Translations under genes and position numbers: made by a program | NCBI GenBank assembly: GCA_947627615.1 | Contig: CANQWS010000027.1 | Span: 1 to 41,317 of the forward strand | Direction of reading: 5' to 3' | Length of the DNA: 41,317 nt | From: an uncultured Muribaculaceae bacterium | GTDB lineage: Bacteria > Bacteroidota > Bacteroidia > Bacteroidales > Muribaculaceae | Shown: positions 275 through 26,009 of the stretch, in pieces | Layout of the letters: the number at the start of each line of letters is the position of its first letter | Numbering within the stretch: the stretch's first letter is position 1 | Notes under the pieces: generated by a model | What the model was told of the DNA's origin: nothing | The model's database searches: none | What the model saw: the letters and a program-made list of their open reading frames with translations, nothing else

Positions 275-1825
275 TCAGTCTGCCAGGAATTCGAGGTCGT
301 CAGCCGTATATTCGTCGGGAAGCTTGTGGCCGTTAATCATCATAACGGGTGTTGCCGTAAGCCCTGACGCCTTACGCCACTTGAGTTGCTTGTCGAATTC
401 TGCATTGACTTCGTCCGTGTTCACATCAAGGTCCATGCCGGTAAAAAACGCTTCGCCCTGCTGCCGTCCGTGATCATACCAGTCAGTCAGAATCTGCCAT
501 GCCCGTTCGGGACCGAACTTCTGATAGGCGGCAATCAGGTACCGGTTGATCACACTCTTCTCTTCGGAGAAGAACGTCATGGTGTAGCGTATGGTGGCAT
601 CGGGATGCGATGCATAGAACACGTTGAGTTTCTTATGAAGCCGTGAACAGGGTATGCAGTAAGGATTGGCGAATACCGTCAGCTTGGGCCGGCCGCCTTT
701 GACCTTGCCGAACACCATGCCTGACTGCAGTTCGGAATCGCTGTCATAGTCCGGTTCGGCATTGATGAGCATTTTCATCACCTCGGGCTTGGTCCGCAAT
801 TCATTGTAGGCATCCGCCTCGTCGTGATACTTCCGCTCGCTGCGCACATAATCGAGCAGATAACTGATTGCGATTATGAATACCCCGTAAAGCACAAACA
901 CCGTGAGGATATGGATGGAAAACAGACCGCCTTCCCTGTACACTCCGGCCATGAGCAGTGTTATCACCTGCAGCCACATCAGTGACAGGACTATCAGGCA
1001 TAGCGTGCACCATGTCTTGGCCACGAATTTCTGATAGTAAAGACTCCAGAAAGTGAATAGCAACCCGATGGCGCTCAACACGGCCATAGGCATTATCAGA
1101 TCCGGAAACAGAAGCAGAATCAGGGTGTTGACAACAAAGAAACCGGCGCCTATCTCGCTGAGGGTCACCATGCGCAGCACAGTTGAATGCTCCGTCAGCT
1201 TCGGACTGTCACACCGGCTCTCCTTGATTATCGAGCATAACCGTTCGGCCACCGGATTGGCTATATGCATCTGTTTGAGTACAAGAAGATATGACACATA
1301 GATGCCGGCGAGATTCACCATCAGGGTCCCGAGTTCCCATCCCGACAGCATGAAGCCCTTTCCGGTAACGATAGCCACAGCAAGGAACGCTATGCCGAGA
1401 ATGAACAGCAGGGCCTTGGCATGTGAAGCAATTTCGTCCTCATGATTGTCCCGGTACTCAGGCTCACGCGAGGCTGCATCAGGCGTACCCTTGAGCAGCA
1501 CCCCGTCCCACCCGTCGGTGAAATCGTGATAGTCCATCGTCACGTGTCGTCCGTTGACCTGAAGGTTTACCTTGCCGTCCGACACACCACGGAGTATCGA
1601 GAACTGCTTTTTGTAAACCACGATGCTCGGCACCGGAAGCGGTTCACGCTCCGAATCCGATGTGTCGAAACGCTGGGCCTTGACCGGAATCCCATATTCG
1701 CGAAGCATTTCCGCCATACCGTACATGGAATTCTTATAAGGATTGCTTTCATAGACCGCACGGCTCCCACGGCGGGTATGCGGCACATTCAGGCAAGTCA
1801 GATAATCATACAGTATAGATTTCAT
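275..1825 (-). CDS. C39-like / VKOR / thioredoxin fusion membrane protein
   Basis: A 516-residue inner-membrane thiol oxidoreductase. Residues 1-120 resemble a C39 peptidase fold, but the segment that should carry the catalytic Cys reads SMYGMAEML, so it is probably a non-cleaving peptide-binding domain. Residues 137-325 hold about six membrane helices with VKOR features: CTLC (C273, C276) and loop cysteines C197 and C205. Residues about 375-516 form a DsbA/thioredoxin-like domain with CIPC (C390, C393) and a later TATPVMM segment that fits the cis-proline loop. Established role of VKOR-thioredoxin fusions: making disulfides by passing electrons to quinone. The longer frame begins with TTG at 1852; the ATG at 1825 gives a natural start, 42 bases after the upstream peptide gene. 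Co-directional position suggests it oxidises, and may recognise, that peptide (inference). Confidence 0.85.
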   Translation of the reverse strand: MKSILYDYLTCLNVPHTRRGSRAVYESNPYKNSMYGMAEMLREYGIPVKAQRFDTSDSEREPLPVPSIVVYKKQFSILRGVSDGKVNLQVNGRHVTMDYHDFTDGWDGVLLKGTPDAASREPEYRDNHEDEIASHAKALLFILGIAFLAVAIVTGKGFMLSGWELGTLMVNLAGIYVSYLLVLKQMHIANPVAERLCSIIKESRCDSPKLTEHSTVLRMVTLSEIGAGFFVVNTLILLLFPDLIMPMAVLSAIGLLFTFWSLYYQKFVAKTWCTLCLIVLSLMWLQVITLLMAGVYREGGLFSIHILTVFVLYGVFIIAISYLLDYVRSERKYHDEADAYNELRTKPEVMKMLINAEPDYDSDSELQSGMVFGKVKGGRPKLTVFANPYCIPCSRLHKKLNVFYASHPDATIRYTMTFFSEEKSVINRYLIAAYQKFGPERAWQILTDWYDHGRQQGEAFFTGMDLDVNTDEVNAEFDKQLKWRKASGLTATPVMMINGHKLPDEYTADDLEFLAD

Positions 1826-1867
1826 GATCCGTAGAATTAATTCAATATTCAATCAATAATTCGGGAT

Positions 1868-2011
1868 TCAGTCATCCTCGCATTCCTCGGGACGCCTTAT
1901 GTCACATGCGCCTCCCGTGTCATCGGTTTCGGTGTCCGGTCCTGCAGTTATATTTTTCATCTCGTCAAGCGAAAGCTCCGTAGAGCCTTTCCCGGTGTGT
2001 TTTCCTGACAT
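1868..2011 (-). CDS. Double-glycine-leader peptide precursor with acidic two-Cys core
   Basis: A 47-residue open frame, ATG at 2011 and stop at 1868. The N-terminal half ends with LSLDEMKNITAG, which matches the Bacteroidales double-glycine leader pattern (LS..EMK.I.GG) used by C39-type export peptidases and seen in GG-type natural product precursors. Cleavage after A23-G24 would leave a 23-residue core with C36 and C44, ten acidic and two basic residues. A second possible site, G33-G34, would leave 13 residues with both cysteines. AGAGA lies shortly before the ATG. The next gene in the same direction, 42 bases on, is a thiol oxidase with a C39-like domain, consistent with disulfide formation in the core. 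Whether it is a bacteriocin, signal or metal binder cannot be told. The acidic core is unlike typical cationic bacteriocins. No ABC exporter is visible. Confidence 0.72.
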   Translation of the reverse strand: MSGKHTGKGSTELSLDEMKNITAGPDTETDDTGGACDIRRPEECEDD

Positions 2012-24051: not shown

Positions 24052-25146
24052 ATGAAACGATTTCTAATCAGCGCAGTGACAATTCTGGCAGCCTGCCTGT
24101 TGGCCACATCTGACATTCAGGCGCAAGGCCGCGGAAACGGTGGGGAAAGAAACCGGACCCACAACACCACGAACCGCCCCGGCAGAAACGGAGGCAATGG
24201 AGGCCATGTCCGTCCCGGCAACGGCAACAGGGACCACGGCAACCGTCCCGGCAACAACTTCCGTCCGGGCAACAACCCTAATAAAGACCACGGCAACCGC
24301 CCCGGCAACAACTTCCGTCCCGGCAACAACCCTGATAAAGGCCACGGTAACCGTCCCGGTAACAACTTCCGTCCCGGCAACAACCCCGATAAAGGCCACG
24401 GCAACCGCCCCGGTAATAATTTCCGTCCCGACCACAACCCCGATAAAGGCCACGGCAACCGCCCCGGCAACAACTTCCGTCCGGGCAACAACCGACCGGG
24501 GAGCGGCATAAATCACAGACCTCCGGGCAACCACCGCCCTGCACCGCCCCATCACAATCGTCCCGGTTGGGATCACGGCTACAGACCCGGTCCGCCCCAC
24601 CACAACCACCACGGATATCGCCCCGGGCCTCACAGACCTCCCTATATGAGACCCATCCATCGTCCGGGCCGGCCGATAATGCGCCCTTGGGTGCGCCCGC
24701 TTCCCCCTCCGCACTATCGTCCCGTCTATCGCGGCAGCCTTCTCGGAAATATTCTCGGACTGTCCTTCGGCATAGCCTTCAATTCCGCTCTTGACAACCT
24801 CTATTACAGCGGTTACACAATCGACGGCTACATGAATGATCAGGTTTATCTCTCGGGAGTAGCGCAATTCAATTATATGTGGCCTGACGCCACCCTCTTC
24901 TTCAACAACGGCGGACTTGTGCGCAGTCAGTTCTTCGATCCTACTATAGGATATGACGTGACACGCTACTACGACACATACGCCACACTGTGCAGGATGT
25001 ACGGCAATCCGGCAATGCAGAATATGGCCGGCACTGTTTTGAGCGCCACATGGTTCGGAGGCGGCGGTGACTATATCACCCTCCAGTACACCCCCATGGC
25101 ATCCGGCGACTTCAACTATTTCACCATCCTGACCATAGGCCGATAA
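24052..25146 (+). CDS. Secreted Arg/Pro/Gly/Asn-rich repeat protein, paralogue 1
   Basis: A 364-residue exported protein of unknown function. A signal peptide ends near IQAQ (residue 25). Residues 26-210 are low-complexity and strongly basic, rich in R, P, G, N and H, and include a tandem repeat of 18 residues of the form GNRPGNNFRPGNNPDKGH (residues 63-147, almost five copies). Residues about 220-364 are a folded domain with LGLSFGIAFNSALDNLYYSGY, a WPDATLFFNNG strand and the end ATWFGGGGDYITLQY...YFTILTIG. The next gene has the same architecture, so this is a duplicated pair. The basic, flexible region might bind nucleic acid, cell wall or acidic polymers (inference). Confidence 0.85.
   Translation: MKRFLISAVTILAACLLATSDIQAQGRGNGGERNRTHNTTNRPGRNGGNGGHVRPGNGNRDHGNRPGNNFRPGNNPNKDHGNRPGNNFRPGNNPDKGHGNRPGNNFRPGNNPDKGHGNRPGNNFRPDHNPDKGHGNRPGNNFRPGNNRPGSGINHRPPGNHRPAPPHHNRPGWDHGYRPGPPHHNHHGYRPGPHRPPYMRPIHRPGRPIMRPWVRPLPPPHYRPVYRGSLLGNILGLSFGIAFNSALDNLYYSGYTIDGYMNDQVYLSGVAQFNYMWPDATLFFNNGGLVRSQFFDPTIGYDVTRYYDTYATLCRMYGNPAMQNMAGTVLSATWFGGGGDYITLQYTPMASGDFNYFTILTIGR
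24238..24492 (+). repeat. 54-bp coding tandem repeat, about 4.7 copies
   Basis: Four full units and one partial unit encode GNRPGNNFRPGNNP plus a K/D/H tail. Units differ mostly at third codon positions and at two or three residues (for example NKDH against DKGH, PGN against PDH). Being in frame, copy-number change by slippage would keep the protein readable. Confidence 0.92.
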
Positions 25147-25171
25147 ACACCTGTAGGACAAACTTAAAGAA

Positions 25172-25206
25172 AGCCATCTGCAATTAACAGCAGATGGTTT
25201 TTTATA
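25172..25206 (+). terminator. Terminator between the two paralogues
   Basis: CCATCTGC (25174-25181) pairs with GCAGATGG (25190-25197) across an 8-base loop, followed by a run of T residues. It implies that the second paralogue has its own promoter. Confidence 0.8.
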
Positions 25207-25280
25207 TCTGACTAAACCTATCGGCTCAAATATGGTCATAATACCAAACATTGATTAATTAACCGAAAAAACAGAGTGTC

Positions 25281-26009
25281 ATGAAAAAGTTTACAGCAGT
25301 CATAGCATTCGCATTGGCATTGATCATATCAGTTCCCGCCGCTCAGGCATCGTCAAGAAACGACAGACATGACGGAAGACCCGCAGGTGTGGTAAACCGT
25401 CCCGGCAAAAACCACAAACCGGCAAAACCGATAGTGACCCGTCCCGGCAACAGACCGTCGAAACCGTCGGCCGTTCACCGCCCCGGACAGACGTCCCGTC
25501 CTCCCGTGCTGCTGCCACCGGCAAGACCGAACCGCATACCTTCCTACAAATGGATAAGACCTGTGCGCCCCGGCAGTCTCCGCCCCGGAACCGTCAGATT
25601 CCGCAACACCATACTCGGCATCACATTCGGGTCGGCACTGATGAACACTCTTGACAGACTGTATGCGTCGAACTACTCGGTCGACGGCTACGGAAACGAT
25701 GCCATCTACCTCCGTAATGTGACAGAGATGAACTATCGCTGGACCGACGCCACCCTGTTTTTCACAAACGGACGGCTTGAACGCTCCCAGTTCTATGAGT
25801 CATCCATAGGCTTCAACACAAGCCGCTATTATGGAGTGATGAACAACATTAGGGCTCTCTACGGCGAGCCGGCCTCAACTTCAAAAAACGGAAAGACCCG
25901 CACGGCAACATGGTTCGGGGCCGGAGGTGAATATATCAGTCTCGAATACCGGATGCTTAACTCCACCGGCGGCTACCGCTACTTCACCATACTCACCATA
26001 GGTCAGTAA
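25281..26009 (+). CDS. Secreted Arg/Pro-rich protein, paralogue 2
   Basis: A 242-residue exported protein with a signal peptide ending near AQAS (about residue 24). A shorter basic region (25-105) with scattered RPG motifs replaces the tandem repeats of its neighbour. The C-terminal domain lines up along its whole length with paralogue 1: ITFGSALMNTLDRLYASNYSVDGY, WTDATLFFTNG, SSIGFNTSRYY, ATWFGAGGEYISLEY and YFTILTIG. A conserved folded domain with a drifting linker suggests selection on the domain and on the composition of the linker. Its stop overlaps the convergent thioredoxin gene by seven bases. Function unknown. Confidence 0.83.
   Translation: MKKFTAVIAFALALIISVPAAQASSRNDRHDGRPAGVVNRPGKNHKPAKPIVTRPGNRPSKPSAVHRPGQTSRPPVLLPPARPNRIPSYKWIRPVRPGSLRPGTVRFRNTILGITFGSALMNTLDRLYASNYSVDGYGNDAIYLRNVTEMNYRWTDATLFFTNGRLERSQFYESSIGFNTSRYYGVMNNIRALYGEPASTSKNGKTRTATWFGAGGEYISLEYRMLNSTGGYRYFTILTIGQ

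Follow-up and report, generated by a model that had tools for sequence, protein, structure and literature searches.

Bacteroidetocin loci, according to their description (Coyne 2019, PMC6671954), encode a five-transmembrane (TM) protein of unknown nature, a peptide with a double-glycine (GG) leader, a separate thiol oxidoreductase that is required for full activity, and a peptidase-containing ATP-binding cassette (ABC) transporter (PCAT). Here we analyze two genes of an uncultured Muribaculaceae bacterium, located at the extreme start of a 41,317-nucleotide stretch of contig CANQWS010000027.1 (C27:1-41317; this whole stretch is called the window). P0002 encodes a precursor-like peptide of 47 amino acids (aa), and the product of P0001 unites a C39-like domain, a VKOR core and a thioredoxin (Trx) domain in one membrane enzyme. 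Compared by description only, bacteroidetocin loci and the relatives of the window elsewhere in the phylum are alike in combining a short GG-leader peptide with paired Cys residues, a thiol oxidoreductase and a PCAT. They differ in that VKOR, Trx and a catalytically dead C39 domain form a single protein here, whereas the word VKOR has 0 occurrences in PMC6671954. Of the four-gene region of TM protein, peptide, thiol oxidoreductase and PCAT, the window itself shows peptide and enzyme only.

Other described systems share individual parts of this arrangement. The C39-like domain (CLD) of the HlyB type has no catalytic Cys and recruits substrate, and the C39 groove of LahT reads leader positions -4, -7 and -12 (PMC6363468). 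P0001 resembles these cases in its catalytically dead C39-type domain and in the leader positions concerned, but this domain is fused to an oxidase and not to an ABC exporter. Glycocins such as sublancin and thermoglycocin resemble some relatives of the window in having a leader peptide, disulfides, Trx-like oxidoreductases, a glycosyltransferase and a PCAT; in the part of PMC12457901 that was available, however, the oxidoreductases are separate Trx-like proteins, without a VKOR fusion or a leader-binding domain. The GG-Bacteroidales radical S-adenosylmethionine (SAM) systems (TIGR04149, TIGR04157) share the leader type and include the glycosyltransferase family nearest to that of the relatives, some of whose peptides match TIGR04149, one above its cut-off. 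In those systems the modification enzyme is a radical SAM protein; here it is an oxidase. VKOR-thioredoxin fusions of the Synechococcus type consist of a VKOR core and a Trx domain, with a loop Cys pair and a CxxC motif. Compared with these fusions as generally known, P0001 adds an N-terminal helix, a reversed charge bias and the C39-like domain. A leader peptide with its own oxidase is a known sort of system, and no description of one built with a C39-like/VKOR/Trx oxidase was found in the open-licence literature searched.

A precursor-like gene followed by a fused membrane enzyme

The genome assembly comprises 3.36 Mb in 118 contigs and is 99.8% complete. Both genes lie on the minus strand (Table 1), and the ATG of P0001 (at 1825) follows the stop codon of P0002 after 42 bp. 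The stop codon of P0001 ends at 275, and the contig ends 274 bp past the gene, in a dispersed repeat of about 120 bp. The nine best matches to this repeat elsewhere are 80-98% identical and often lie close to a contig end. Any further genes of the operon downstream of P0001 are hidden by this break. Upstream of P0002 lie divergent genes that are apparently unrelated.

Table 1. Features at the start of the window, with the evidence for each
Feature	Position	Strand	Evidence
P0002, 47-aa precursor-like peptide gene	1868..2011	-	ORF, gene-like codons, leader matrix
P0002 leader, residues 1-24, ends ITAG; L-12, E-8, M-7, I-4	1940..2011	-	alignment with 105 family leaders
P0002 predicted core, residues 25-47; Cys36, Cys44 (C-x7-C); net charge -8	1871..1939	-	sequence
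P0001, C39-like/VKOR/thioredoxin membrane enzyme, 516 aa	275..1825	-	ORF, Pfam, profile search, alignment
P0001 C39-like domain, residues 1-117, lacking the catalytic Cys and His; putative module for leader binding	1475..1825	-	Pfam, profile, alignment
P0001 extra transmembrane helix A, about residues 136-154, before VKOR core	1364..1420	-	hydropathy 2.46
P0001 VKOR core, residues 168-289; loop Cys197/Cys205 and CxxC Cys273/Cys276	959..1324	-	Pfam, alignment
P0001 thioredoxin/DsbC-like domain, residues 379-512; Cys390, Cys393, Pro493	290..691	-	Pfam, profile, alignment
Dispersed repeat in which the contig terminates	1..130	.	repeat search

The peptide reads MSGKHTGKGSTELSLDEMKNITAG followed by PDTETDDTGGACDIRRPEECEDD, and the end of its leader reads ...LSLDEMKNITAG. 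It shows the double-glycine leader pattern, with hydrophobic residues at -4, -7 and -12, Glu at -8 and the GG variant AG at the end. Cleavage would be expected after AG, leaving 23 aa, of which 10 are acidic and 2 basic. With a matrix trained on other genomes the leader scores 17.2 bits. Among 6,074 null open reading frames (ORFs), some of them double-counted owing to overlap between short and long stretches from the same place, only P0002's own copy and one GG-leader peptide (Dyadobacter, L031) reach this value, as do none of 20,000 shuffles; with the matrix retrained on the non-window loci the score is 29.3 bits. The codon log-odds of P0002 is 0.222 per codon, alongside 0.16-0.41 in eight listed window genes that belonged to the codon training set. 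One of the 92 ATG ORFs of 38-60 aa in the window reaches the P0002 value and is taken to be P0002 itself, which is included in both the codon and the matrix control. P0002 was not matched by the curated leader-peptide models TIGR04149, TIGR01847 and NF047798, and no signal peptide was seen in the precursors. The first-pass annotation of this DNA, made from the sequence alone, had called a 47-codon gene with a leader and a short, acidic core containing two Cys residues. Given its gene-like codons and a leader that matches a matrix from other genomes, the gene looks real, and Cys36, Cys44 and the net charge of -8 agree with that call.

The gene downstream had been described as a fusion of C39-like, VKOR and thioredoxin-type domains, and this architecture was borne out. 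The VKOR match in Pfam (PF07884, residues 168-289; E=1.2e-11) has 45.3 bits against a gathering score of 27.5, and the matches to Thioredoxin_4 (residues 379-512; E=0.001) and Peptidase_C39 (residues 33-115; E=0.01, 16.1 bits, cut-off 22) lie under their cut-offs. When solved structures were searched with a profile of 20 P0001 sequences, the C39 domain and first helix of PCAT transporters (4ry2, PCAT1 and others) and DsbC-type proteins were both matched at E about 1e-6. The six redox Cys residues (197, 205, 273, 276, 390 and 393) are invariant in 20 full-length homologues, as is the Trx Thr-Pro (Pro493), and Pro392 is nearly so.

In all 13 enzymes aligned with 12 PCATs, the catalytic Cys and His of C39 are absent at the corresponding positions; P0001 starts just beyond the position of the Cys, and Gln replaces the His. 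P0001 is thus rejected as a working C39 protease. The first-pass annotation had called this domain Cys-less, which is not literally true (Cys10 is present), although both catalytic residues are indeed gone. Its proposal that the domain holds the leader fits published cases of dead C39-like domains in such a role (PMC6363468).

Pairing of the enzyme with leader peptides and its distribution

We analyzed 38 loci outside the taxonomic family of the window: 35 stretches from a phylum profile search, covering 36 of its 43 listed non-window rows (seven rows were left out), together with L079, L080 and L145. Among them, the enzymes of L121 and L140 are C39-less and that of L120 is interrupted by a stop. 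With the retrained matrix, a GG- or AG-leader ORF with at least two Cys was detected on the enzyme strand in 36 of the 38 (none in L080 and L118) and begins no more than 700 bp after the enzyme in 31, whereas none of the 17 leader ORFs on the opposite strand has at least two Cys, a strand contrast that is partly circular because the training set of this matrix consisted of same-strand ORFs with two or more Cys. A leader motif that was fixed before the 35 phylum loci were read, and was untrained on them, picked out 33 such ORFs with two or more Cys on the enzyme strand, distributed over 18 of the 38 loci, and 0 on the opposite strand. When 12 loci were inspected by eye for ORFs missed by the motif, a small leader-like ORF was present after the enzyme in 11. 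PCATs follow the same strand rule (enzyme strand in 24 of the 38 loci, opposite strand in 0).

Examples include a Parabacteroides distasonis plasmid (NZ_OY725766.1) that encodes the VKOR, a 59-aa AG-leader peptide with six Cys, a LanC family protein, two glycosyltransferases and a PCAT; Emticicia oligotrophica (NC_018749.1), in which an AG-leader six-Cys peptide occurs with the enzyme; and an IMG/VR contig (L145), in which the enzyme, a LanC-like protein and a glycosyltransferase (both named by eye) and a GG-leader six-Cys peptide stand in a row. In the 105 family leaders (P0002 included), position -4 is I, V, M or L in 105 and position -12 is L, I, F or M in 105; position -8 is E in 80, and position -7 is M, L, V or A in 63 and Gln in 40. 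The AG ending of P0002 occurs in 20 of 104 counted leaders. The number of Cys residues is even in 103 of 105 cores, that of the window included, and six cores have just two. These data support the pairing of a leader peptide with a C39-like/VKOR/Trx oxidase, which the first-pass annotation had deduced from a single locus, as a recurrent feature of the phylum, and the finding is more general than that annotation knew.

The acidity of the core was also placed in this context. It had been taken as unusual and as a possible sign of a signalling or metal-binding role. The net charge of the 105 family cores ranges from -8 to +7, and P0002 is the lowest per residue (-0.35). However, because 78 of the 105 are below zero, no such role follows, and acidity was rejected as a sign of signalling.

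The ORFs on the opposite strand of the phylum loci are mostly tandem Cys-free GG peptides reading away from the enzyme, and provide a natural control. Cys-free GG-leader peptides occur upstream, on the opposite strand, in L127, L131, L132, L133, L137, L139 (and L141), often in tandem and with Gly/Asn/Pro-rich tails; we take the loci with such tandem peptides to be Flavobacterium-like.

P0001 matches 167 of 397 genomes of the window's family at E<=1e-10, most of the listed matches spanning only residues 1 to about 345. This short form, which consists of the C39-like and VKOR parts only, is widespread in the family. The full-length form is patchy: two of 34 genomes of the genus at E<=1e-58 (the window's own and G162, in two frames), three of 393 at the order level passing 1e-45 with P0001, and 36 of 395 at the phylum level passing 1e-40 in the profile search, the last two counts including the own genome. 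No second copy was found in the own genome at E<=0.1, and none in phage records. Viral contigs gave no match with the single P0001 protein and one (L145) with an alignment, and a genome-contig scan with the single protein gave only L031. In a VKOR-core tree the family splits from four canonical VKORs (99/97), and, with the tree drawn open, the window groups with 13 same-family full-length proteins (85/94), although branches are long and details uncertain. Enzyme copies with stops or split in two frames were seen in L015/L048 (G086), L120 (G1055), L016/L050 (G162) and L176, and on another P. distasonis plasmid (NZ_OY725771.1) the annotation gives separate, overlapping genes for the C39-like and the VKOR-Trx part.

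Loci of the window's own family differ from this general picture. In ten of 18 same-family full-length loci, an ATG ORF of 40-200 aa encoding five or more Cys lies near the enzyme on the same strand, compared to one on the opposite strand. By eye, at least two of the ten (in L033 and L038) look spurious; another ORF in L033, with a TTG start and thus outside the ATG rule, looks genuine. Six same-family precursors are 118-160 aa long and lie upstream, with weak leaders, and L047 and L049 have AG-leader six-Cys peptides downstream of the enzyme. The window combines the upstream position of its own family with the leader type of the phylum. In 18 of 20 short-form loci, a thioredoxin with a CPHC motif lies just upstream of the enzyme and, by eye, has no N-terminal signal sequence. 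Directly after the enzyme stop, 15 of 20 short-form loci (L053-L070) have, by eye, a leader-like ORF of about 42-76 aa (LT..EMN.IHF and variants); 11 of 14 such ORFs are Cys-free and three have one Cys. The short form, the upstream CPHC thioredoxin and the downstream leader-like ORF make up a three-gene unit. Elsewhere in the window (24052-26009) there are two adjacent related ORFs, the first of which is rich in tandem RPGNNFRPGNNPxKxHGN repeats.

Proposed reaction and membrane orientation

The reading we lean towards, with somewhat more confidence than doubt, is that P0002 is the precursor of a small disulfide-looped peptide resembling ribosomally synthesized and post-translationally modified peptides (RiPPs), and that P0001 is its dedicated disulfide synthase, cytoplasmic, guided by the leader and coupled to quinone. 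The dead C39-like domain would bind the amphipathic leader through L-12, E-8, M-7 and I-4, and the Trx domain (C390-x-P-C393) would oxidize C36 and C44 of the core. The VKOR loop pair C197/C205 and the CxxC pair C273/C276 would then re-oxidize the Trx domain, passing electrons to membrane quinone. The extra helix before the VKOR bundle would bring all sites to one face, which the charge bias would mark as cytoplasmic. Elsewhere in the phylum, the oxidized precursor would be handed to the C39 peptidase-transporter.

Of 73 family members, 65 have a helix before the canonical VKOR bundle (six helices in all) with a mean hydropathy of at least 1.5. Given six helices, the C39-like domain, both VKOR Cys sites and the Trx domain are expected on one face. 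On this active-site face, Lys and Arg are in excess in all 73 members (21 + 32 + 20; L121, L140 and L120 excluded), with a density of 0.14-0.17 versus 0.03-0.05. The four C39-less relatives carry the same bias; of these, L031 and the open frame of L121 are the only ones with a discernible helix A, and L140 and the second L137 frame look truncated. In contrast, 11 of the 12 other phylum VKORs that were scored favour the opposite face (0.05 vs 0.23 in the first eight); these 11 come from five genera. These 12 controls came from 20 loci, of which six others belong to the C39-like family (L156, L165, L166, L168, L169 and L173) and two were left out, L167 as the window and L159 as near-identical to L158. 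Four controls without a match to the VKOR profile were also scored; L154, L163 and L171 behave like the first eight and L161 does not.

Under the positive-inside rule, the face rich in Lys and Arg is cytoplasmic. Applied to the observed bias, this rule would place the active site of the family in the cytoplasm, and the P0001 family is probably an inverted VKOR whose active site faces the cell interior. Independently of the charges, the signal-less CPHC thioredoxins beside 18 of 20 short-form relatives and the precursors without a visible signal peptide point the same way, as does the alignment of the C39 domain and first helix with PCAT1. The first-pass annotation had missed topology; an inverted orientation would put the chemistry where the uncleaved leader exists, and a cytoplasmic site would fit a leader-binding domain because a PCAT removes the leader during export. 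The title of a 2017 report by Hibender on the VKOR of Aeropyrum pernix, cited in PMC12453122, announces VKOR-driven disulfide formation in two subcellular compartments, which would be a precedent for a cytoplasmic VKOR; it makes no mention of a peptide.

The alternative that retains most weight, though we consider it unlikely, is the same pairing with an enzyme that faces the periplasm, so that the precursor would be exported with its leader and oxidized outside. Characterized bacterial VKOR-Trx proteins act in the periplasm, and the Trx domain resembles DsbC-type proteins, which are periplasmic. This orientation is opposed by the charge bias, reversed throughout the family, by the lack of a visible signal peptide ahead of an N-terminal domain of about 115 aa, and by the signal-less partner thioredoxins of 18 of 20 short-form loci. 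In addition, a PCAT would strip the leader during export.

Several observations weigh against cytoplasmic, leader-guided oxidation of P0002. The charge bias is a predictor and not a measurement, and characterized VKOR-Trx proteins face outward, their active site lying on the non-cytoplasmic side. Seven of the 73 family members have a weak helix A (hydropathy 1.0-1.5), and in L046 this helix could not be placed. The reversed bias is not exclusive to the family: L161 (G787:C21:6172-6555), a 163-aa VKOR without a C39-like domain, shares it and likewise has one helix more, and the inversion may extend beyond the C39-like family. The sole structure model of P0001 (AlphaFold, 3 sequences, predicted local distance difference test score of 51), with six long helices, one of them at 124-154, and C39-like strands, is too poor for a conclusion on the fold. 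P0002 matched no Pfam or NCBIfam model (E<=5 for NCBIfam), and its exact 47-codon frame was found in the own genome alone among 397 family genomes (E<=0.01). The first-pass annotation had named lack of conservation of this frame beside homologous VKOR genes as refuting; that outcome holds for the frame but not for the pairing. P0002 lies upstream of the enzyme, and in 0 of the 38 phylum loci does a leader ORF with at least two Cys start within 700 bp before it. In the window's own family, such ORFs occur in only three of 18 loci at a matrix score of 10 (two at a score of 12), and most loci have longer precursors with weak leaders or none seen. Finally, no PCAT was found in the window's genome.

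Export, further modification and significance

The last point bears on the view that peptide and enzyme survive in the window as a relic, or in reduced form, after loss of the exporter and other genes, with no product being made any longer; we find this view rather improbable. The C39 ABC exporter that the first-pass annotation proposed to look for elsewhere in the genome did not appear: PF03412 gave 0 matches at E<=0.001. Since intact transporters of relatives score about 1e-30 to 1e-37 in the same search, an intact PCAT should have been seen, apart from the gap left by the contig end; at this threshold the search also misses the degenerate C39 domain of P0001 itself. The ITAG ending in place of GG, the single copy of the enzyme and the contig end so close behind it would also agree with a relic. 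However, the enzyme frame is intact with all conserved Cys residues present, the codons of P0002 are gene-like, and AG also closes 20 of the 104 family leaders counted. Moreover, only five of 15 sampled same-family carriers, the own genome included, have a PF03412 match in a frame of at least 700 aa; in the other ten, several of which are incomplete genomes, any match comes from the enzyme itself, from its short form or from a fragment. In the window's genome, either a PCAT lies in an unassembled stretch, or another exporter is used, or the product is kept inside.

Less probable still is that the product is a further modified RiPP, glycosylated or LanC-dependent, for which the VKOR module only sets the thiol state. 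In several same-family loci, glycosyltransferases and LanC-like proteins (named by eye) follow the enzyme. Two scanned glycosyltransferases of relatives are nearest to TIGR04157 (236 and 248 bits, under its 400-bit cut-off), and one LanC-like protein scores above the cut-off of PF05147. On the other hand, the own genome has no close relative of the cluster glycosyltransferase (five weak partial matches, the best 28% over part), and the core has only two Cys. No glycosyltransferase was seen beside P0002 in the window, where the contig end hides any genes after the enzyme. TIGR04149 had 0 matches at E<=1 in the own genome. A LanC-like ORF of 222 aa in L032 (7316-7984, minus strand) matches only the first third of PF05147 (2-116 of 350), and its product is, judging by this match, unlikely to be a lanthionine cyclase. 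In carrier genomes, other PCAT-like loci (L179-L181, L185-L188) adjoin CxxC-cluster proteins that by eye resemble radical SAM/SPASM maturases, and two peptide-modification routes seem to coexist there.

A housekeeping thiol oxidase beside an unrelated small ORF would suit the wide occurrence of the short form, but the full-length form is patchy and, outside the family, tied to Cys-rich leader peptides, so this very improbable explanation was rejected as the main one.

Returning to leader-guided oxidation by P0001, we regard as evenly balanced the broader proposal that a phylum-wide inverted VKOR family makes cytoplasmic disulfides by means of a leader-reading dead protease, the window holding a minimal form that makes a single disulfide and has given up the use of a C39 exporter. 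Disulfides of secreted bacterial peptides are usually attributed to extracytoplasmic oxidases, and a VKOR facing the cell interior, if true, would be unusual. Bacteroides are said to lack general disulfide machinery (PMC6671954). A leader-guided oxidase would explain how and where such bacteria make disulfide peptides. A cytoplasmic active site, if confirmed, would make it a rare natural enzyme of its kind and useful for making disulfide peptides. In addition, the enzyme family offers a genome-based route to many Cys-rich peptides that tend to escape notice.

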